64,000 bases of DNA from Nitratireductor basaltis. GTDB lineage: Bacteria > Pseudomonadota > Alphaproteobacteria > Rhizobiales > Rhizobiaceae. Location: contig NZ_JMQM01000001.1 of assembly GCF_000733725.1 (NCBI RefSeq), forward strand, positions 186,001-250,000. Direction: 5' to 3'. The translations under genes were made by a program, and so were the position numbers. Each line of letters begins with the position of its first letter. Position 1 is the first letter of the stretch. The notes beneath the pieces were generated by a model. It did no database searches. It saw nothing but the letters and a program-made list of their open reading frames with translations, and was not told the DNA's origin. Shown in pieces: positions 6,230 to 64,000 of this stretch.

Positions 6230-6705
6230 GTGACGCGCCTATATGCGCGCTTGCCCAAAGTCGCACGTGCCTGTGGGTGTCCGCCGAACCTCGGAATGGC
6301 GAGGAAATCGGTACGGTACCTGGACCTAACCGCTCCAGTCGATTCTACGGCCACCCGCTGAATCGAGGACATCTTGAAGCAACGACGGTGCGGGCCTTTC
6401 TGGTGTCTGCCGGTTGTCCATAAACCGGGGTTACTGAAGAGGCACACCTTCATTGCCGGCAGTGCGGAGGGTTTTCCCATCCAAAGCTGAGGCAGACAGA
6501 GCGGATTTTCGCTTCTCGCAAGCGGTGATCCAACGCGGTGCGTCATGGCACCATGGCCGGTGCATTCCACCCTCCGGCTCGTGGAGTTCATGCGTGTTGC
6601 GCCTTTGTCCATCGCATGGCGGGCGGCATGCCCCTCATGCACGATTGAGAGCTTCAGTTCGGCTGCCCGTTGCGCGGAGAATCCGCCCGGGTGCCAAAGG
6701 GGAAA
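6230..6705 (+). ncRNA. long structured leader of ornithine decarboxylase, candidate speF RNA motif
   Basis: About 610 bases separate the methionine aminopeptidase start from the decarboxylase start, and no convincing gene lies between. The stretch is GC-rich with many short inverted repeats (for example GGTACGGTACC near 6312 and CATGGCACCATG near 6544). Alphaproteobacteria carry the described 'speF' structured RNA at exactly this place, upstream of ornithine decarboxylase. Boundaries are approximate, and identity rests on position and length, not on a covariance match. Confidence 0.4.
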
Positions 6706-51101: not shown

Positions 51102-51320
51102 GAAAGCTCCCGATATCGCGCCGAGGAGAGCCGGATTTGACCTGCGCCGTCAAGCGTGGGGATTGTGCCGCGGATGCTCCTTGCATGGAGCCAGCGGGCC
51201 ATGCTGCATAGCGGGCACAGTCAAGTAGCAAGGCAGTCACTTTTGCGATTGCCTGTGCGTATCAGGGATAAGTTCAACTATCCGTTGACAGGCGATGCTC
51301 CCGCGATACTAGATATAGTC

Positions 51321-51511
51321 ATCACGGTGCCTTCGAGTCGCAAATGCGGCTTGCGGGCTAAGAGGGAAGCCGGTGCGCGAGATGTCTCGCAAGACCGGCG
51401 CTGCCCCCGCAACTGTAAGCAGTGAGTTCGTGCCGAACATGTCACTGGCGCTTGGCCGCCGGGAAGACAGGCAGGAGCGTTTGAGCTGCAAGCCAGGAAA
51501 CCTGCCGTGAT
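51321..51511 (+). ncRNA. cobalamin riboswitch upstream of nrdAB
   Basis: Conserved pieces of the B12 riboswitch are in order: P1 5' strand ATCACGG (51321), GGGAAGCCGGTG (51364), GCTGCCCCCGCAACTGTAAG (51400), the B12 box AAGCCAGGAAACCTGCC (51490) and P1 3' strand CCGTGAT ending 51511. The aptamer binds adenosyl- or other cobalamins and turns off the downstream gene. The expression platform follows: a hairpin with loop GGCGGGG (51526-51544) and a Shine-Dalgarno-sequestering hairpin (51597-51625). The stretch from 51102 to 51320 holds divergent promoters and no gene. Confidence 0.95.
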
Positions 51512-51525
51512 GAAGATGAAACGTC

Positions 51526-51634: not shown

Positions 51635-54505
51635 ATGCCCAGTGCTGCCGCCACCCAGACCTCGCCGCAAAATGGCGTTCACCACGAGCCGGAATTCAAG
51701 TTCGAGCAGGAAGCGGCTCGGAGTGAGCCGGGTTTCCGCGTCATTCGCCGCAATGGCGGTGTAACGCCCTTCGACCCTTCCAAGATCACGGTTGCGCTGA
51801 CCAAGGCCTTTCTTGCGGTGGAAGGCTCCACGGCTGCCGGATCGCGCCGCGTGCATGACGTGGTGGAAGAGCTGACCGAGCAGGTCGTGGGCGCACTCAC
51901 GCGTCGCGGCGAAACGGGGCGTCTCTTCCATATCGAGGAAATCCAGGATCAGGTCGAACTGGCACTGATGCGCAGCGAGCACCACAAGGTGGCGCGCGCT
52001 TATGTGCTTTACCGCGAGGAGCGTGCACGCGAGCGGCATGCGGATGAAGCCGTGACAGTCGAAGCTGCAGCTCCTGCTGGCCTGACCATGACGCTTTCAG
52101 ATGGAAGCACGGTGCCGCTTGACGAAAAGCGGCTGGCCGTTGTCATCGAAGAGGCCTGCGCTGGGCTTGCGGATGTTTCGGCAGAGACGATCCTGAAAGA
52201 GACGCGGCGCAATCTTTATGACGGCATCCGCCAGGACGAGCTGGCATTGGCACCCATTCTCGCCGCGCGCACGCTTGTCGAACAGGAGCCGAACTATTCG
52301 CAGGTCTCTGCGCGCCTGCTTCTCGACAAGCTGCGCCGCGAAGTGCTGAGTTTCATCGAAAAGCGCCCGACCGAGGCCACGCAGGCCGAGATGTTCGAGC
52401 GCTACCCAGCCTATTTCAAGGGCTTCATCGAGGCAGGCATCGAGGCGGAGATGCTGGACCCGGAGCTTGCACGCTTCGATCTCGACCGCATCGCAGCTGC
52501 ACTGAAGCCAGAGCGTGACCTGCAATTCCAGTATCTGGGGCTGCAGACGCTTTATGATCGCTACTTCCTGCACAAGGACGGTGCGCGCTATGAGCTGCCG
52601 CAGGCCTTCTTCATGCGTGTCGCGATGGGGCTGGCCATTCGCGAGATCGATCGCGAGGCGCGGGCCATCGAGTTCTACAATCTGATCTCGTCCTTCGACT
52701 TCATGTGCTCGACCCCAACGCTCTTCAATTCCGGCACGCGGCGTCCGCAGCTTTCCTCCTGCTTCCTGACGACGGTTGCCGATGATCTCGACGGCATCTT
52801 CAAGGCGGTGAAGGACAATGCGCTTCTGGCGAAATATTCGGGCGGGCTTGGCAATGACTGGACGCCGGTGCGCGGGCTTGGTGCACATATCAAGGGCACG
52901 AATGGCGAAAGCCAGGGCGTTGTGCCGTTCCTGAAAGTTGCCAATGACACGGCGATTGCGGTCAATCAGGGCGGCAAGCGCAAGGGTGCGGTCTGCGCCT
53001 ATCTGGAAACCTGGCATATCGACATCGAGGAGTTTCTCGATCTGCGCAAGAACACCGGCGATGACCGGCGGCGCACCCATGACATGAACACGGCCAACTG
53101 GGTGCCGGACCTGTTCATGGAGCGGGTGGAAGCCGATGGCGAATGGACGTTGTTCTCGCCCGATGAGACGCCTGATCTGCACGACCTGTACGGCGTGGAT
53201 TTCGCCAAGGCTTATGCGGCTTACGAGGAGAAAGCGAAGCGCGGGGAACTGCGTGTCTACAAGACGCTGCGCGCGGTCGATCTGTGGCGGCGGATGCTGA
53301 CCATGCTCTTCGAGACAGGCCATCCGTGGATCACGTTCAAGGACCCGTGCAATCTGCGCTCGCCGCAGGGCCATGTCGGCGTGGTTCACTCGTCCAATCT
53401 GTGCACGGAAATCACGCTCAACACGTCCAGGGATGAAGTGGCTGTCTGCAATCTGGGCTCGGTCAATCTTGCCGCCCATATCGGTGAGAAGGGGCTCGAT
53501 TTCGAGAAGCTCGAACGCACCGTGAAGACGGCGATGCGGATGCTCGACAATGTGGTCGACATCAATTTCTATACCATTCCCGAAGCGCGGGCTTCCAATC
53601 TGCGTCACCGTCCGGTCGGTCTTGGCCTGATGGGCTTTCAGGATGCCTTGCAGAAGCTGCGCATTGCCTATTCGTCCGATGAGGCGGTGGAATTCGCCGA
53701 CCGCTCCATGGAAGCGATCTCCTATCATGCGATTTCGGCTTCAACCGATCTTGCTGAAGAGCGCGGCGCCTATGCCAGCTTCAATGGTTCCCTCTGGTCG
53801 AAGGGTGTGCTGCCCATCGACAGCATCAACCGCGTCAGCCATGCCCGTGGCTTTAACGAGATGGACGAGACGATCACGCTCGACTGGGAGACATTGCGCA
53901 AGCGGGTGAAGAAGGCCGGCATGCGCAACTCCAACTGCATGGCCATCGCGCCGACAGCGACGATCTCCAATATTTGCGGCGTCAGCCAGTCGATCGAGCC
54001 CGCCTATCAGAACCTCTTCGTCAAATCGAACATGTCGGGCGACTTCACCGTCGTGAATGCAGCACTCGTGCGTGACCTGAAGGCGCGCGGGCTGTGGGAC
54101 GAGGTGATGGTGTCGGACCTGAAATATTATGACGGTTCTGTCGGCCAAATCGACCGCATACCCGACGATCTCAAGGCCCTTTACGCGACCGCCTTCGAGA
54201 TGGATGCAAGCTGGCTGATCGAAGCGGCCTCGCGACGTCAGAAATGGCTCGATCAGGCACAGTCGCTCAATCTCTACCTCGCCAATCCGTCCGGCAAGAA
54301 GCTCGATGCGCTGTACCGGCTGGCATGGCGCAAGGGCTTGAAGACCACCTACTATCTGCGCGCCAGTGCCGCGACTTCCGTGGAGAAGTCGACGCTCAAA
54401 GGTACGGACGGGAAGCTGAATGCCGTGTCGGTGGAACCGACGGTCTACGCCTCTGCGCCGAAGGCCTGTGCGATTGATGATCCTGAATGTGAGGCTTGTC
54501 AGTAA
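51635..54505 (+). CDS. nrdA: ribonucleotide reductase large subunit, class I (with two ATP cones)
   Basis: This 956-residue protein is longer than enterobacterial NrdA (about 761) because of two N-terminal ATP-cone regions: FRVIRRNGGVTPFDPSKITVALTKAFLAVEG (about 34-125) and a second starting TMTLSDGSTVPLDEKRLAVVIEEAC (about 150-235). Catalytic landmarks are SSCFLTTV (active-site Cys), SSNLCTEITLN (thiyl-radical Cys), VAVCNLGSVNLAAHI (partner Cys), KTTYYLRA (radical-transfer tyrosines) and C-terminal CEAC (Cys952, Cys955). It reduces ribonucleotides to deoxyribonucleotides. B12 represses it through the riboswitch, implying a B12-dependent isozyme elsewhere. Start ATG 51635 has GGGGGAA upstream. 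Confidence 0.95.
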   Translation: MPSAAATQTSPQNGVHHEPEFKFEQEAARSEPGFRVIRRNGGVTPFDPSKITVALTKAFLAVEGSTAAGSRRVHDVVEELTEQVVGALTRRGETGRLFHIEEIQDQVELALMRSEHHKVARAYVLYREERARERHADEAVTVEAAAPAGLTMTLSDGSTVPLDEKRLAVVIEEACAGLADVSAETILKETRRNLYDGIRQDELALAPILAARTLVEQEPNYSQVSARLLLDKLRREVLSFIEKRPTEATQAEMFERYPAYFKGFIEAGIEAEMLDPELARFDLDRIAAALKPERDLQFQYLGLQTLYDRYFLHKDGARYELPQAFFMRVAMGLAIREIDREARAIEFYNLISSFDFMCSTPTLFNSGTRRPQLSSCFLTTVADDLDGIFKAVKDNALLAKYSGGLGNDWTPVRGLGAHIKGTNGESQGVVPFLKVANDTAIAVNQGGKRKGAVCAYLETWHIDIEEFLDLRKNTGDDRRRTHDMNTANWVPDLFMERVEADGEWTLFSPDETPDLHDLYGVDFAKAYAAYEEKAKRGELRVYKTLRAVDLWRRMLTMLFETGHPWITFKDPCNLRSPQGHVGVVHSSNLCTEITLNTSRDEVAVCNLGSVNLAAHIGEKGLDFEKLERTVKTAMRMLDNVVDINFYTIPEARASNLRHRPVGLGLMGFQDALQKLRIAYSSDEAVEFADRSMEAISYHAISASTDLAEERGAYASFNGSLWSKGVLPIDSINRVSHARGFNEMDETITLDWETLRKRVKKAGMRNSNCMAIAPTATISNICGVSQSIEPAYQNLFVKSNMSGDFTVVNAALVRDLKARGLWDEVMVSDLKYYDGSVGQIDRIPDDLKALYATAFEMDASWLIEAASRRQKWLDQAQSLNLYLANPSGKKLDALYRLAWRKGLKTTYYLRASAATSVEKSTLKGTDGKLNAVSVEPTVYASAPKACAIDDPECEACQ

Positions 54506-54532: not shown

Positions 54533-54677
54533 ACCCCCATCTGGCTTGCCAGCCATCTCCCCCTCAAGGGGGGAGATCAGTCGTGGCAATCGCAGCACCT
54601 GATCGTTGGCGATCTAATGCGTGATGGCCAATCTCCCCCCTTGAGGGGGAGATGCCCGGCAGGGCAGAGGGGGGTGG
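54533..54677. repeat. RIME-like palindromic intergenic element, copy 3
   Basis: This element lies between nrdA and nrdB. The left arm is CCCCATCTGGCTTGCCAGCC then ATCTCCCCCTCAAGGGGGGA, and the right arm CTCCCCCCTTGAGGGGGAGA then TGCCCGGCAGGGCAGAGGGG. It is the most regular of the three copies here and can fold into one long stem. It ends about 45 bp before the nrdB start. Confidence 0.8.
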
Positions 54678-54723: not shown

Positions 54724-55830
54724 ATGCTGAACTGGAACGAAGAAACACCCACATCCGCATCCCAAACAGCCGAGGCCGATGCCACCGGTCTTGGCGCGAT
54801 CGAACGTGGTGGCGCACGCGTTTCTGTTGATGACAAGCGCATGATCAATGCGCGTGCGGATGTGAACCAGCTTTTGCCACTGAAATACAAATGGGCGTGG
54901 GAGAAATATCTCTCCGGCTGCAACAATCACTGGATGCCGACGGAAGTGTCGATGCAGGCCGATATCGCGCTTTGGAAGTCACGCGAAGGGCTGACCGAGG
55001 ACGAGCGGCGCATGCTCAAGCGCAATCTGGGCTTCTTTGCGGCTTCGGAGTCGCTGGTGGCCAACAATATCGTGCTTGCCATCTACCGGCACCTGACGAA
55101 CCCCGAATGCCGGCAATATCTGCTGCGCCAGGCCTTCGAGGAGGCGGTCCACACGCATACCTTCCAGTATATCGTGGAAAGCCTCGGCCTGGATGAGGGC
55201 GAGCTCTTCAACATGTATCGTGAAGTGCCGTCCATCACTGACAAGGCGGCCTGGGCGCTGGAATATACCAAGCATCTGGACGATCCGGATTTCCAGACCG
55301 GCACGCGGGAAGCCGATCAGGCTTTCCTGCGCGATCTGGTCGCCTTCTATGTGATCTTCGAGGGCATGTGGTTCTATACCGGCTTCGCGCAGATCCTCTC
55401 TCTTGGGCGGCGCAACAAGATGGTGGGGATTGCCGAGCAGTATCAGTACATCCTCCGCGATGAGAGCATTCATCTGAATTTCGGCATCGACGTCATCAAC
55501 CAGATCAAGCACGAAAACCCGCATCTGTGGACCGATGTCTTCAAGAACGAAGTGCGCAGCATGATCCGCGAGGCGGCGGAGCTGGAAGCGGCATACGGCC
55601 GCGATACGATGCCGCGCGGCTTCCTTGGGCTCAATGCCGAGCTTTGCGAGCAATATATGCACTTCATCGCCAATCGCCGCTGCGCGCAGTTGGGGCTTGA
55701 GGCGGTTTTCGAGGCCACCGAAAACCCGTTCCCGTGGATGTCGGAAGCGATGGATCTGAAGAAGGAGAAGAACTTCTTCGAAACCCGCGTGATCGAATAC
55801 CAGAATGGTGGTGCACTGAGCTGGGATTGA
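54724..55830 (+). CDS. nrdB: ribonucleotide reductase small subunit, class Ic type (Mn/Fe)
   Basis: ATG 54724 ([14 protein letters not shown]) with GGAGAA upstream gives 368 residues; the frame upstream crosses the repeat and is not coding. Metal ligands are Glu109 ([12 protein letters not shown]), Glu140 and His143 ([11 protein letters not shown]), Glu213 (VIFEGMWFY), Glu247 and His250 ([10 protein letters not shown]). Two positions break the class Ia pattern: the first ligand is Glu rather than Asp, and the radical tyrosine position, four residues after His143, is Phe147. Both are the marks of class Ic (Chlamydia type), which uses a Mn(IV)/Fe(III) cofactor in place of a tyrosyl radical. It works with NrdA under the same riboswitch. 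Confidence 0.93.
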
Positions 55831-55911
55831 GATGTCGGCCTATCACTTAAAGATATAAACATTTCCTTATATCCCATTGACACTGGCGCGGCTTCGGGCG
55901 AAGCTGCGCCT

Positions 55912-56096
55912 GTCGTGGTTCCGGCGCATGGATGGTCCATGTTTCGGCCAAGAGGGAATGCGGTGCGCCGGTGACGGCTAATCCGCGGCTGCCCCCGCAA
56001 CTGTAGGCGGAGAGCGCCTGTCCATCATGCCACTGCGCGAAAGCGCGGGAAGGCGGGCAGGGGCGATGACCCGCAAGCCAGGAGACCTGCCACGGC
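55912..56096 (+). ncRNA. cobalamin riboswitch upstream of metE
   Basis: Aptamer pieces are in order: P1 5' strand CGTGG (55914), GGGAATGCGGTGCGCCGGTG (55953), AATCCGCGGCTGCCCCCGCA with ACTGTAGGCG following (55980), the B12 box AAGCCAGGAGACCTGCC (56075) and P1 3' strand CCACG (56090). B12 should shut off metE, whose job is done by MetH when B12 is present. The upstream stretch 55831-55880 is AT-rich (CACTTAAAGATATAAACATT) and probably contains the promoter; no gene lies there. Confidence 0.95.
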
Positions 56097-56106
56097 GCAT
56101 CACAAC

Positions 56107-56203
56107 CACGGGCGGGGTGTCCCGGTGAGGGTTTGCGTTGCGGCCATCCGTTGCCGTGCGCTTTTGCCTTTCCGCCATAACCCCGTCCTGACAGACCGGG
56201 GTT
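56107..56203 (+). promoter_or_regulatory. riboswitch expression platform of metE, translation type
   Basis: CACGGGCGGGGTGTCCCGG (56107-56125) is identical, base for base, to the element before nrdA. CCCCGTC lies at 56181, exactly 70 bases after GGCGGGG at 56111. AACCCCG (56179-56185) pairs perfectly with CGGGGTT (56197-56203), which covers the ribosome-binding GGGG for ATG 56208. Confidence 0.6.
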
Positions 56204-56207
56204 TGAA

Positions 56208-58523
56208 ATGTCTGGAAATATCAAGATTGCAGCACTCGGCCTGCCGCGTATCGGCGCCAGGCGGGAACTGAAATTCGCGCTGGAGGGCTTCTGGTCGGGA
56301 AAACTGACCGAGGCCGAACTTCTCGCAAAGGCGGCAGAATTGCGCGCAGAAAACTGGAGGCGCCTGCAGAGACTAGGTGTGGATGTCATCCCGTCCAATG
56401 ATTTTTCGCTCTATGACCACGTGCTGGACATGGCGGTGACCGTGGGCGCGGTGCCTGAGCGCTTCGAGCAAGTGAAGGCGGGCGGTGTACTGGCGACTTA
56501 TTTCGCCATGGCGCGTGGCAGTACGGGCACTGAGCGTGACGCCTGCGAACATTCTCACGGTGACGGCGTCGCAGCGCTTGAGATGACCAAATGGTTCGAC
56601 ACGAATTACCACTACATGGTGCCGGAACTGCACGCCGGACAGGCGTTTGCTCTGGCTGGGGAAAAGCCGGTTGCCGAATATCTGGAAGCCAGGGCGTTGG
56701 GCATCGAAACGCGGCCCGTACTGCTTGGACCGGTATCCTTCCTGAAGCTCAGCAAATGTGTTGACGGGAGCGATCCACTGGCGCTGTTGCCGCGATTGTT
56801 GCCTCTCTATGTCGAACTTCTCGCGCGTTTGCGTGAGGCGGGAGCCGAATGGGTGCAGATCGACGAGCCTTGCCTGGTACTCGACCTTCAGGAACGTGAG
56901 CGCGAGGCCTACGCGTTTGCATTCGGTGCGCTGGCCACGAAAGATGCGCCGAAGATCATGCTTGCCACCTATTTCGGTGGGCTTGGAGAAAATCTCGCCG
57001 TCGTTTCCACCCTTCCGGTACACGGCCTGCATGTTGACCTCGTGCGTGCTCCCGACCAGCTTGATGCAGTTCTGGATGCGATACGTCCGGAGAGCGTGCT
57101 TTCCCTTGGCGTGATTGACGGGCGCAATGTGTGGCGGGCGGATCTTGCGCGCCTTATCGAGCGGCTGGAGCCGGTGGTAAGAGGGCGTCAGGGTGTAGTG
57201 CAGATCGCACCTTCCTGCTCGCTTATTCATGTGCCGATTGATCTGGAGCTTGAGACCGAGCTCGATGTGGATTTGAAGACCTGGCTGGCTTTTGCTCTAC
57301 AGAAGATCGAGGAGCTAGGCGTTCTGAAGGCAGCCCTTTCTGGCGAGGCGGCGCGTGTAGGCGAACGGATTGAGGCGGCCACCCACGCGCTTGAGGCGCG
57401 ACGCAGATCGGCGAAAGTGCATAGTCAGGCCGTTGCGGCTCGTCTTGCGCAGGTCAGGGCGGGATTGACCAGGCGCAGCCTTGATTTCCAGTCGCGTCGA
57501 AAGTTGCAGAATGCGGCGCTTGGCCTGCCATCGTTCCCCACAACCACCATCGGCTCCTTCCCGCAGACGCCAGAGGTGAGGAAAGCGCGGGCCGCGCATC
57601 GTCGGGGCGAGATTCAGACCGCGGATTATCTCAGCTATCTGCGTCGGGAAACCGAAGCGGCCATTCGCTGGCAGGAAGAGGTGGGGCTGGATGTGCTCGT
57701 GCATGGCGAGTTCGAGCGCAACGACATGGTGCAGTATTTCGGAGAGCAGCTGTCGGGCTATGCCTTCACAAGCCATGGTTGGGTGCAAAGCTACGGGTCA
57801 CGCTATGTGCGTCCGCCAGTGATCTTCGGCGACGTCTCGCGACCGGAGCCCATGACCGTGGACTGGGCGAAATTTGCACAATCGCTGACGGACAAACCGG
57901 TGAAGGGCATGCTGACTGGGCCGGTCACCATGCTGCAATGGTCGTTCCCACGCGATGACGTGCCACGGGAGACGACCTGCCGACAGATCGCGCTGGCGCT
58001 GCGGGACGAGGTGCAGGACCTGGAAGCCGCCGGGATCAGCATCATCCAGGTGGATGAGCCGGCGCTGCGCGAGGGGCTGCCCTTGAAGCAGGGAGAATGG
58101 CACGACTATCTCGAATGGGCAGTCGACTGCTTCCGTCTCGCGACCTGCGGCGTGGCCGCTGAAACGCAGATCCACACCCATATGTGCTATGCCGAGTTCA
58201 ACGATATCATCGAAGCCATCGAGGCGCTGGATGCGGATGTGATTTCGATCGAGACCTCCCGCTCACGCATGGAGCTTCTGGATGCCTTCTCCAGCCATGC
58301 CTATGGGAAGGATATCGGGCCGGGCGTCTTCGACATTCATTCCCCGCGCGTTCCGCCGGCAGAGGAGATGTCGGAACTTTTGCAGAAGGCCAAAGATGGT
58401 CTGAAACCCTGGCAGATCTGGGTCAATCCCGATTGTGGCCTGAAGACGCGGGCCTGGGAGGAAGTCAGGCCCGCACTTGCCAATATGGTAGAGGCGGCGC
58501 GTCGGTTGCGCTCCAGCGTTTGA
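56208..58523 (+). CDS. metE: cobalamin-independent methionine synthase MetE
   Basis: This 771-residue protein is full length. The N-terminal barrel reads LGLPRIGARRELKFALEGFWSGKLTEAELL, and the C-terminal catalytic barrel starts LPSFPTTTIGSFPQTPEVRKARAAHRRGEI. Zinc and substrate residues are seen in HMCYAEFNDIIEAIEALDADVISIETSRS and VNPDCGLKTRAWEEV; VHGEFERNDMVQYFGEQLSGYAFT is the homocysteine region. It transfers a methyl group from methyltetrahydrofolate polyglutamate to homocysteine without B12. A B12 riboswitch lies directly upstream, and B12-dependent metH lies 1.8 kb downstream. Confidence 0.96.
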   Translation: MSGNIKIAALGLPRIGARRELKFALEGFWSGKLTEAELLAKAAELRAENWRRLQRLGVDVIPSNDFSLYDHVLDMAVTVGAVPERFEQVKAGGVLATYFAMARGSTGTERDACEHSHGDGVAALEMTKWFDTNYHYMVPELHAGQAFALAGEKPVAEYLEARALGIETRPVLLGPVSFLKLSKCVDGSDPLALLPRLLPLYVELLARLREAGAEWVQIDEPCLVLDLQEREREAYAFAFGALATKDAPKIMLATYFGGLGENLAVVSTLPVHGLHVDLVRAPDQLDAVLDAIRPESVLSLGVIDGRNVWRADLARLIERLEPVVRGRQGVVQIAPSCSLIHVPIDLELETELDVDLKTWLAFALQKIEELGVLKAALSGEAARVGERIEAATHALEARRRSAKVHSQAVAARLAQVRAGLTRRSLDFQSRRKLQNAALGLPSFPTTTIGSFPQTPEVRKARAAHRRGEIQTADYLSYLRRETEAAIRWQEEVGLDVLVHGEFERNDMVQYFGEQLSGYAFTSHGWVQSYGSRYVRPPVIFGDVSRPEPMTVDWAKFAQSLTDKPVKGMLTGPVTMLQWSFPRDDVPRETTCRQIALALRDEVQDLEAAGISIIQVDEPALREGLPLKQGEWHDYLEWAVDCFRLATCGVAAETQIHTHMCYAEFNDIIEAIEALDADVISIETSRSRMELLDAFSSHAYGKDIGPGVFDIHSPRVPPAEEMSELLQKAKDGLKPWQIWVNPDCGLKTRAWEEVRPALANMVEAARRLRSSV

Positions 58524-58531
58524 TCCGGTGG

Positions 58532-58552
58532 GCGGGTGCATAACGCACCCGC
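58532..58552. terminator. convergent terminator hairpin after metE
   Basis: GCGGGTGC and GCACCCGC form a perfect 8-bp stem with an ATAAC loop, between metE and the convergent small membrane protein gene. No strong uridine run follows on either strand. Confidence 0.6.
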
Positions 58553-58555
58553 TCG

Positions 58556-58738
58556 TCAATGCCGTGGTGGCATTGTCGGGTCGTCCTGGTAGACACGCTC
58601 GGTGCCTTCGTGCTGGCGAATTTTCTCGCTGGCTTTCAGCCTGCGGCGGCGCATTACCGCGTAGATCACCGCGATGCCAAGAATGATCGGACCGCCTGCT
58701 ACCGTCAGCAGCCACAGGAAATTGCTCGAATGTATCAC
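58556..58738 (-). CDS. small single-helix membrane protein, unknown function
   Basis: The 60-residue protein starts at GTG 58738 (MIHSSNFLWLLTVAGGPIILGIAVIYAVMRRRR), preceded by CAGGAGCAAGGC, a good ribosome-binding site. One membrane helix (about residues 8-28) is followed by a basic stop-transfer and a polar tail (LKASEKIRQHEGTERVYQDDPTMPPRH). Its make-up is common among small rhizobial inner-membrane proteins. I do not recognise a function. It is convergent with metE and divergent from the DUF427 gene. Confidence 0.65.
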   Translation of the reverse strand: MIHSSNFLWLLTVAGGPIILGIAVIYAVMRRRRLKASEKIRQHEGTERVYQDDPTMPPRH

Positions 58739-58875
58739 GCCTTGCTCCTGTCGTGATTGATGCGGTGTAGGACCGCCTTGCTTGAGGGAACAATGCGAGC
58801 GTAGTCGCGTGGTTCCCTCTGGAACCCAAAGCGCGTGGGTGTCGTTCTTCTGGCAAGTGACAGCGAGGAATGACG

Positions 58876-59262
58876 ATGAGCGCTACATCCGAACGCATTT
58901 CCATCCGCCCCTATGACGGCACGGTCAATATCTTCTTTTCCGATGCGGTGGTCGCATCGACGGAGAAGGCACTGGTTTTGGAGGAGCAGGGGCACAAGCC
59001 CGTCTACTATGTGCCGTTCGAGCACATCTATTTCGATTTTTTCCGCAAGAGCCCGACCACCACAACCTGCCCGTTCAAGGGTCAGGCCTCATACTGGAGC
59101 GTGGAGGCTGTCGGCGAAGCTGCCGACGATGTGCTGTGGTCCTATGAGACTCCGCATGAGGATGTGAGGCAGATTGCAGGCTATGGTGCGTTCGATCCAA
59201 ACAAGGTCGACATCGAAGCCGCCCCCAAGGACAGCCCGCGGCACGTGCCTGAAGGGGACTGA
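58876..59262 (+). CDS. DUF427 domain protein
   Basis: ATG 58876 (MSATSERISIRPYDGTVNIFFSDAVVASTEKALVLEEQGH) is preferred, as GAGGAATGAC gives it proper spacing; ATG 58870 is close behind the same site. The protein has 128 residues. DUF427 marks are KPVYYVPFEHIYFDFFRKSPTTTTCPFKGQASYWSVEAVGEAADDVLWSYETPHEDVRQIAGYGAFDPNKVDIEA, including the YxPxxxV/I-xxxF and TxCPFKGxAxYW motifs. The family's biochemical role is unknown. Confidence 0.88.
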   Translation: MSATSERISIRPYDGTVNIFFSDAVVASTEKALVLEEQGHKPVYYVPFEHIYFDFFRKSPTTTTCPFKGQASYWSVEAVGEAADDVLWSYETPHEDVRQIAGYGAFDPNKVDIEAAPKDSPRHVPEGD

Positions 59263-59433
59263 CTGCAAGAGACCACTGATCAGGCCGGATCGAGCCGTCG
59301 AGCGCAAGTTCGGCGGCTTTTCTTTTACTTGCGCATCGCTGTATGAGCTTCTTGGACAAAGCAGGTCATCGCGAATAGGCTGGTGATCCTGCAAGAAGAC
59401 AGTCGACAAACCTAAAGCGGGTGGGCGGGTACG

Positions 59434-60165
59434 GTGAACAAGGATGAGCGGTCCTTTCTGATCAACATGCTGGAGCGGCATGACAACCTGAGTGACGAGG
59501 AGCGGCAAGCCATTATCGCATTGCCGGCCCGCATGCGCAGCTTCGCTTCCGGCGAAGAGCTTGTCGCCGAGGATTCGCGTCCTGAGGAGGCCTGTCTTAT
59601 CGTTGAAGGTTTCGCCGCCCGCGCGCAATATCTGGCCAATGGCAAGCGCCAGATTTCGGCGGTGCATATCCCCGGAGATTTCGTCGATCTGCACAGCATG
59701 TTGCTGAAGACCATGGACCACGCGGTGATTGCCGTCGGGCCCTGCCGCGCGGCATTCGTGCCGCATGGCAATCTTCGTCGCCTGACGGAAACGCACCCGC
59801 ATCTGACCCGTCTTCTGTGGCACACGACACTGGTGGATGCAGCTATTCAACGGGCCTGGATCGTCTCACTTGGGCGTATGAGTGCCGAGCAGCAAATGGG
59901 TCATCTGCTCTGCGAGCTTTACACGCGGTTACGGGCAGTGGGGGTCATCGAGGGCGACAGTTTCGACTTCCCACCGACGCAAGCCATGATCGGTGACATG
60001 CTGGGCATGTCGACCGTCTATGTGAACAAGACACTCGCGAATTTGCGCTCCACCGGATATGTCGAATGGCAGGACCGGCGTGTCCGTATCGTCGATTACG
60101 AGCGGTTGGCGGAGATGGCAGAGTTCGACCCGCGTTATCTCAATCTGTGGCGCGAGCCCCGATAG
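59434..60165 (+). CDS. Crp/Fnr-family transcriptional regulator
   Basis: The 243-residue protein starts at GTG 59434 (MNKDERSFLINMLERHDNLSDEERQAI). The cyclic-nucleotide-binding-like fold covers residues 30-140 (FASGEELVAEDSRPEEACLIVEGFAARAQYLANGKRQISAVHIPGDFVDLHSMLL). It lacks an FNR-type N-terminal cysteine cluster and the cAMP-contacting arginine motif of CRP. The helix-turn-helix is FPPTQAMIGDMLGMSTVYVNKTLANLRSTGYVEWQDRRVRI. The subgroup is common and numerous in Hyphomicrobiales, often with unknown ligands. It precedes metH but is probably a separate unit, because metH has its own control region. Confidence 0.88.
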   Translation: MNKDERSFLINMLERHDNLSDEERQAIIALPARMRSFASGEELVAEDSRPEEACLIVEGFAARAQYLANGKRQISAVHIPGDFVDLHSMLLKTMDHAVIAVGPCRAAFVPHGNLRRLTETHPHLTRLLWHTTLVDAAIQRAWIVSLGRMSAEQQMGHLLCELYTRLRAVGVIEGDSFDFPPTQAMIGDMLGMSTVYVNKTLANLRSTGYVEWQDRRVRIVDYERLAEMAEFDPRYLNLWREPR

Positions 60166-60262
60166 CTCGAACTCTGCCTGTCTGTTGCCTATCTACCGGA
60201 TTATAGTGGTGCCAGCACGGAACAATGCTCGCGCCGGACAAGGCTGTGCGGCCCGTATATTG

Positions 60263-60282
60263 ACATAAAGATGTCTTTATGT
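60263..60282. promoter_or_regulatory. perfect palindrome upstream of metH, probable operator
   Basis: ACATAAAGA-TG-TCTTTATGT has 9-bp perfect arms and lies 34 bp before the metH start. TTGACA (60260-60265), a possible -35 box, overlaps its left arm. Palindromes of this AT-rich type precede methionine-cycle genes controlled by ArsR-family (SahR-like) regulators in Proteobacteria. Which regulator binds here is inference. Confidence 0.6.
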
Positions 60283-60316
60283 GATTGCTCCGGCGAAATC
60301 CATGAGAGGAAATTGC

Positions 60317-64000
<3,684 letters not shown>

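Follow-up and report, generated by a model that had tools for sequence, protein, structure and literature searches.

Nitratireductor basaltis encodes, behind a cobalamin riboswitch, a ribonucleotide reductase R2 subunit with the class Ic sequence signature

The window, that is, the whole stretch of 64,000 nucleotides of Nitratireductor basaltis DNA that was analysed, carries a class I ribonucleotide reductase (RNR) operon followed by methionine synthase genes, all on the forward strand. A cobalamin riboswitch aptamer (51308..51523; Rfam RF00174, 124.1 bits, E 1.1e-30) ends 111 bases before nrdA (51635..54505), the gene for a class I catalytic subunit of 956 aa (NF005544, 1719.9 bits; PF02867, PF00317, PF03477) in which the ATP-cone model PF03477 matched two stretches. 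By alignment, NrdA keeps the E. coli residues C225, N437, C439, E441, C462, Y730, Y731, C754, and C759, and the Cys triad, Tyr dyad, and C-terminal Cys pair expected in a class I RNR operon are all present. After a gap of 218 bases comes nrdB (54724..55830), which encodes the R2 subunit. A second cobalamin riboswitch aptamer (55899..56108; RF00174, 123.2 bits) lies between nrdB and metE, 99 bases before the latter (56208..58523), which encodes the B12-independent methionine synthase (TIGR01371, 1099.5 bits against a cut-off of 929.95). The region 3′ of nrdAB (56208-64000) holds, in addition to metE, genes for a DUF427 protein and a Crp-like regulator (59434-60165), with metH, the gene for the B12-dependent methionine synthase, farther along. 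The activation domain of metH was mapped to 63212..64000 and runs off the window end (PF02965 at C1:249212-250030, the window being C1:186001-250000).

An NrdR-box consensus had no match in the window, and a promoter and terminator scan of the window returned 0 and 2 sites, respectively, versus shuffle means of 1.2 and 4.2. Elsewhere in the window, the Alphaproteobacterial sRNA ar45 was found at 6253-6399 and, 8 bases further on the same strand, a speF leader at 6408-6557.

The nrdB frame translates to a class Ic-type R2 subunit of 368 aa, as assigned from the ORF translation, Pfam, NCBIfam, and alignment. A longer ORF starts at 54652; the ATG at 54724, with a GGAG 7 bases 5′ of it, is a plausible start. 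The protein is an R2 by Pfam (PF00268, E 2.7e-94) and scored 682.8 bits with NCBIfam NF005550, for a cut-off of 309. The match of the Chlamydia trachomatis (Ct) class Ic R2 spans residues 31-367. A sequence-only reading of this DNA had named E109, E140, H143, F147, E213, E247, and H250 as the residues of the metal and radical site, and all of them are present in the translation. In the alignment, the first metal ligand E109 (55048..55050), an Asp in class Ia, corresponds to Ct E89, and the further ligands E140 (55141..55143), H143 (55150..55152), E213 (55360..55362), E247 (55462..55464), and H250 (55471..55473) correspond to Ct E120, H123, E193, E227, and H230, respectively. The radical-tyrosine site is taken by F147 (55162..55164; Ct F127). 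In addition, alignment to chain 1syy matched W70 (54931..54933) to Ct W51 and F217 to Ct F197, while Y242 (55447..55449) was matched to Ct Y222, which serves as an electron relay (PMC4118035), and the C-terminal radical-transfer tyrosine Y359 (55798..55800) to Ct Y338. In E. coli NrdB, the residues at positions 109, 147, and 242 are Asp, Tyr, and Leu. Alignment to the C. trachomatis and E. coli proteins thus placed a Phe, and no Tyr, at radical position 147, as had been claimed from the sequence.

The class Ic features found in NrdB are Glu as the first ligand, Phe four residues after the first His ligand, the Ct Y222 equivalent (Y242), and the C-terminal Tyr (Y359). Among these, Y242 is also present in the near and mid-distance relatives that have an Asp/Tyr pair at positions 109 and 147 and is not discriminating for class Ic. 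The class Ia features, an Asp first ligand and a radical Tyr, are replaced in NrdB by E109 and F147, which rule out that it is class Ia. Across 183 aligned R2 rows, not all independent because some share a genome or stem from near-identical ones, the pair at 109/147 is Glu/Phe in 101 and Asp/Tyr in 82, with no mixed row, and such strict pairing rules out a chance origin of the Glu/Phe signature. These rows are the window NrdB, two PDB chains, and 180 fetched loci; L001 and L002 (own genome) and L195 (a duplicate) were left out. The remaining loci numbered 194, of which 14 yielded no R2 row, these being loci of other genes or riboswitches and L017, whose PF00268 match is below the cut-off. L010 and L019 are apparently one genome, with identical riboswitch coordinates, and L042 and L162 are identical across the tree columns. 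In a set of 105 loci, Glu/Phe was found in 91 of the 94 with an R2 match, namely the 80 best relatives (the best 80 of at least 593 confirmed stretches), 9 other same-family carriers, and the two own-genome loci; the remaining three are Asp/Tyr proteins, 23-25% identical.

At six positions, 73, 76, 109, 146, 147, and 219, no letter of the 101 Glu/Phe rows recurs in the nearest Asp/Tyr rows, of which there are 52 (59-70% identity by BLAST), and this holds with Chlamydia counted among the Glu/Phe rows. At position 73, the more distant Asp/Tyr rows have yet other letters. Position 76 is Ser in 2 of the 21 far Asp/Tyr rows, position 146 is Thr in 6 of the 9 mid-distance ones, and position 219 is Ser in 6 of the 21 far ones as well as in Chlamydia. 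Because their letters recur in distant Asp/Tyr rows, positions 76, 146, and 219 are less telling. NrdB is 85.5% identical to the R2 of Saccharopolyspora erythraea (6y2n), 59.1% to that of Chlamydia (335 columns), and 22.3% to E. coli NrdB. Outside class Ic, its nearest relatives are Asp/Tyr proteins of class Ia-like type, which at 65.5-67.6% identity (four rows) are closer than Chlamydia. The near Asp/Tyr proteins, from the same phylum but other classes, also score in NF005550 and keep Y242. They are unlike the window NrdB in their Asp/Tyr site and in their upstream DNA, where a riboswitch was found in 0 of 22 loci (30 of the 52 near rows are too short upstream to be judged).

For the position of NrdB among R2 proteins, a careful tree was built from 78 chosen rows of the 183, with columns 109, 147, and 242 removed. 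A single branch (bootstrap 96, SH-aLRT 57) set apart all 38 Glu/Phe rows, Chlamydia included; next to them stood a group of 20 Asp/Tyr rows, and rooting on the mid-distance Asp/Tyr proteins placed the Glu/Phe group nested among Asp/Tyr rows. This nesting suggests, if not firmly, a descent of class Ic from a class Ia-like ancestor. The branch leading to Chlamydia measures 2.23 changes per column in the careful tree, and a quick tree of 81 chosen rows needed two changes between Asp/Tyr and Glu/Phe. AU tests rejected neither a tree that joins Chlamydia to the Asp/Tyr sister group (p-AU 0.485) nor one that puts it outside both groups (p-AU 0.219). Alignment, residue set, and tree together upheld the class Ic membership that the sequence-only reading had proposed for NrdB. 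On the R2 phylogeny, where that reading had asked for it to be placed, NrdB stood with the Glu/Phe rows; by the AU tests it may share an origin with Chlamydia. If Glu/Phe arose twice, the carry-over of the Chlamydia cofactor to NrdB would be weaker. The available text of PMC3824934 has a single R2c clade and cites Lundin et al. 2010 as finding R2c polyphyletic. That of PMC8463856 describes Ic-like sequences as grouping with Ia-like ones in a cluster 2 that includes Pseudomonas aeruginosa, a grouping that agrees with the near Asp/Tyr relatives found here.

Two loci of the tree, L165 and L166 (genomes G447 and G141), have a Glu/Phe NrdB in genomes of the same phylum but other classes, nested in actinobacterial sequences. 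They sit beside L092 (98/95, careful tree) and are without riboswitch; judging from their placement, these genes look like a transfer from Actinobacteria. The nrdB match at G648:C89:25829-26902 contains one in-frame TAG, which may reflect a broken gene or a fault in the assembly.

The C. trachomatis R2 (1syy, 4d8f, 4m1h, 4m1i) has the same metal ligands and radical-site Phe as NrdB and shares the W51, F197, Y222, and Y338 equivalents, but differs in its long separate branch and in having P at 76 and S at 219. The R2c of C. trachomatis binds Mn in site 1 and Fe in site 2, reacts with O2 to Mn(IV)/Fe(IV), receives an electron via Y222 and W51, and uses the resulting Mn(IV)/Fe(III) in place of a tyrosyl radical (PMC8463856, PMC4118035). 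All residues of that mechanism are present in the NrdB alignment. PMC4118035, a review from 2014, counts three Mn/Fe proteins studied up to that time, with that of C. trachomatis as the sole R2c, and states that in vivo Mn/Fe occupancy had been shown for no R2c. The actinobacterial S. erythraea protein, which has the same Glu/Phe site as NrdB, was published as a crystallography test case (PMC7467353).

We consider it likely, with good confidence, that NrdB is a class Ic R2 with a Mn(IV)/Fe(III) cofactor and that its operon is a backup for B12 shortage. By analogy with C. trachomatis, NrdB would require Mn, pass through the same redox states, and work without a tyrosyl radical. Apo-NrdB would take Mn(II) into site 1 (E109/E140/H143) and Fe(II) into site 2 and then react with O2; one electron would enter via Y242 and W70, giving Mn(IV)/Fe(III) as the resting state. 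This center would oxidize the NrdA cysteine C590 through W70, Y359, and the tyrosine pair YY(906/907), and no tyrosyl radical would form at position 147.

That the Glu/Phe site uses another metal pair in the cell, either a high-valence Fe/Fe or a class Id-like Mn/Mn, is unlikely in our judgment. The alphaproteobacterial/actinobacterial branch may not share the origin of the Chlamydia protein, as the trees and AU tests allow, R2c readily loads Fe/Fe or other metals in vitro (PMC4118035), the texts consulted gave no metal analysis of a member of this branch, and the word manganese is absent from the available text of PMC7467353, the source of the 85.5%-identical 6y2n. However, NrdB keeps all the Ct site residues that were checked, the Y222 and F197 equivalents included, and high activity of the Ct R2c is limited to its Mn/Fe form (PMC4118035). 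We regard as very improbable a class Ia-like NrdB having a diferric cofactor and its radical on another tyrosine such as Y242. The Asp/Tyr pair of the nearest non-Ic relatives, which also have Y242, speaks for it, but in these proteins Y242 stands alongside the normal radical Tyr; moreover, it is the equivalent of the Ct Y222 relay, and F147 is found in all 101 Glu/Phe rows. Finally, an R2-like ligand-binding oxidase (R2lox), which is no RNR subunit and likewise has no radical Tyr and a Glu first ligand (PMC3824934, PMC4118035), is a reading of next to no probability, refuted by the adjoining complete nrdA, by the C-terminal Tyr Y359, and by R2lox model scores of 31-55 bits against cut-offs of 194-346.

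The backup role in the preferred reading, a Mn/Fe class Ic enzyme for B12 shortage, draws on the rest of the genome (3.55 Mb, 5 contigs, 100% complete). NrdB is its single PF00268 match, and one NrdJ, an AdoCbl-dependent class II RNR of 1254 aa, was found (NF005736, 2361 bits). Chlamydia is not known to have a class II RNR beside its class Ic enzyme. A third cobalamin riboswitch of the genome lies before genes for a BtuB-like receptor and a B12/iron-type ABC transporter, names that are approximate as the scores are below the NCBIfam cut-offs, and PF02514 (CobN) had no match in the genome. This layout is that of an organism predicted to import B12 and use it when possible, with B12-free spares for both enzymes. 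NrdAB shows both marks of an isozyme under AdoCbl-riboswitch control, a cobalamin riboswitch upstream and a B12-dependent isozyme elsewhere in the genome. The earlier suggestion that nrdAB serves when B12 is scarce was supported by the riboswitches at nrdA and metE and by the presence of NrdJ and MetH. A role of NrdAB as B12 backup is well supported by these genes, and from the same sequences we infer the direction of the regulation, namely repression by B12. With AdoCbl plentiful, the riboswitches would turn off nrdAB and metE and the cell would use NrdJ and MetH; with B12 (or cobalt) short, the Mn/Fe enzyme would take over.

A similar arrangement was found in many relatives. Among the best 80 of at least 593 confirmed stretches, a cobalamin riboswitch lies upstream of nrdA, on the coding strand, in 62 of the 75 testable loci, L021, L023, L056, L080, and L097 having been left out for upstream DNA that is too short. 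The riboswitch-bearing loci belong to relatives named as Alphaproteobacteria, Acidobacteria, and Actinobacteria. The 13 of 75 without riboswitch are L039, L050, L052, L064, L076, L078, L082, L084, L088, L092, L094, L095, and L096, eight of which were rescanned whole. Among same-family Glu/Phe carriers, the riboswitch is upstream in 10/10, and in the phylum sample it was found at 7/9 Glu/Phe loci, the exceptions being L165 and L166. It is also present at 6 of the 7 testable mid-distance Asp/Tyr nrdAB loci (9 loci in total, ~40% identity; L169-L171 and L173-L175), so that the riboswitch cannot serve as a class Ic mark. Because it lies upstream of these Asp/Tyr operons too, the riboswitch probably goes with the role of backup to a class II enzyme and not with Mn/Fe chemistry. 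All 35 genomes searched, which were picked from those behind the 80 best relatives to spread over the named taxa, have one or more additional large-subunit genes away from the nrdA locus; assignment of such a gene to class II by NCBIfam applies to the window genome only.

At ten loci (L034, L041, L048, L051, L053, L055, L063, L068, L069, and L159), two cobalamin riboswitches stand back to back, each on its own strand, and one of them faces nrdA. From their orientation, such pairs would be two divergent B12-controlled units. In Pelagibacterium lentulum (L039, G074:C42:8000), the open frame that contains nrdA runs to 2444 codons, more than in any other of the 35 genomes.

The presence of class Ic nrdB was also compared with that of cobN, whose absence is a stand-in for no de novo B12 synthesis, PF02514 being the sole marker of the pathway. 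In the genus (G000-G015), a Glu/Phe R2 was found in 9/16 genomes and CobN in 8/16. Eight genomes have the R2 without CobN, one has both (G013), seven have CobN without the R2, and none has neither (Fisher p 0.0014, kinship ignored). CobN lies ~2 kb downstream of a same-strand riboswitch in all eight genomes that have it. An rpoB tree of the genus, covering 14 of the 16 genomes (the other two have no full rpoB match) and with its intended outgroup split, G018 falling inside the genus on a long branch, gave 3 changes for each trait and 2-3 independent pairs; the sign test on these pairs had a median p of 0.5. The near-exclusion of class Ic nrdB and cobN observed in the genus is suggestive only, because there are just 2-3 independent pairs. 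In the order-wide set of 229 genomes, NF005550 scored above the cut-off in 31 and PF02514 was missing in 22. Absence of PF02514 was found in 5/31 carriers versus 17/198 others (Fisher p 0.19, two unlisted genomes being taken as without class Ic; p 0.017 at the extreme, with both taken as class Ic), and most class Ic carriers of the order have a PF02514 match. CobN is over-counted order-wide because PF02514 also takes in magnesium chelatase subunits.

Much of this has been described before: class Ic itself, the B12 riboswitch on nrdAB, and the co-occurrence of B12-dependent and B12-independent RNRs are already known (PMC8463856, PMC4991794, PMC6461909). A link between class Ic and the B12 riboswitch was not seen in the available text of PMC9936198 and PMC4428469, in a search that misses most subscription papers. 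The Streptomyces nrdABS operon resembles that of the window, with a riboswitch before nrdAB and NrdJ as the main RNR, and PMC4991794 labels this riboswitch-controlled NrdAB class Ia. The Streptomyces nanshensis locus L085, in the clade of NrdB, has a Glu/Phe NrdB and a cobalamin riboswitch upstream. This locus suggests that the Streptomyces ‘class Ia’ operon may be mislabelled.

NrdB joins a known enzyme subclass as an ordinary member, and its setting is informative. Its system offers a free-living setting in which to test why the Mn/Fe cofactor evolved, where one cell should make dNTPs with cobalt (NrdJ) or with Mn and Fe (NrdAB), the riboswitch choosing between them. The positions that travel with the difference between Asp/Tyr and Glu/Phe do so at ~66% identity, near enough for residue swaps. 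More tentatively, and as a serious possibility rather than a likely one, class Ic may be the B12-switched spare RNR of free-living Alphaproteobacteria, Actinobacteria, and Acidobacteria, in which cobalt is traded for Mn and Fe, and which lineages that lost B12 synthesis keep and B12 makers drop. If this is true, positions 73, 76, 146, and 219 would be candidate determinants of metal choice beside E109 and F147, the Streptomyces nrdABS, long called class Ia, would be class Ic, and class Ic would no longer be chiefly a peculiarity of Chlamydia, archaea, and extremophiles.
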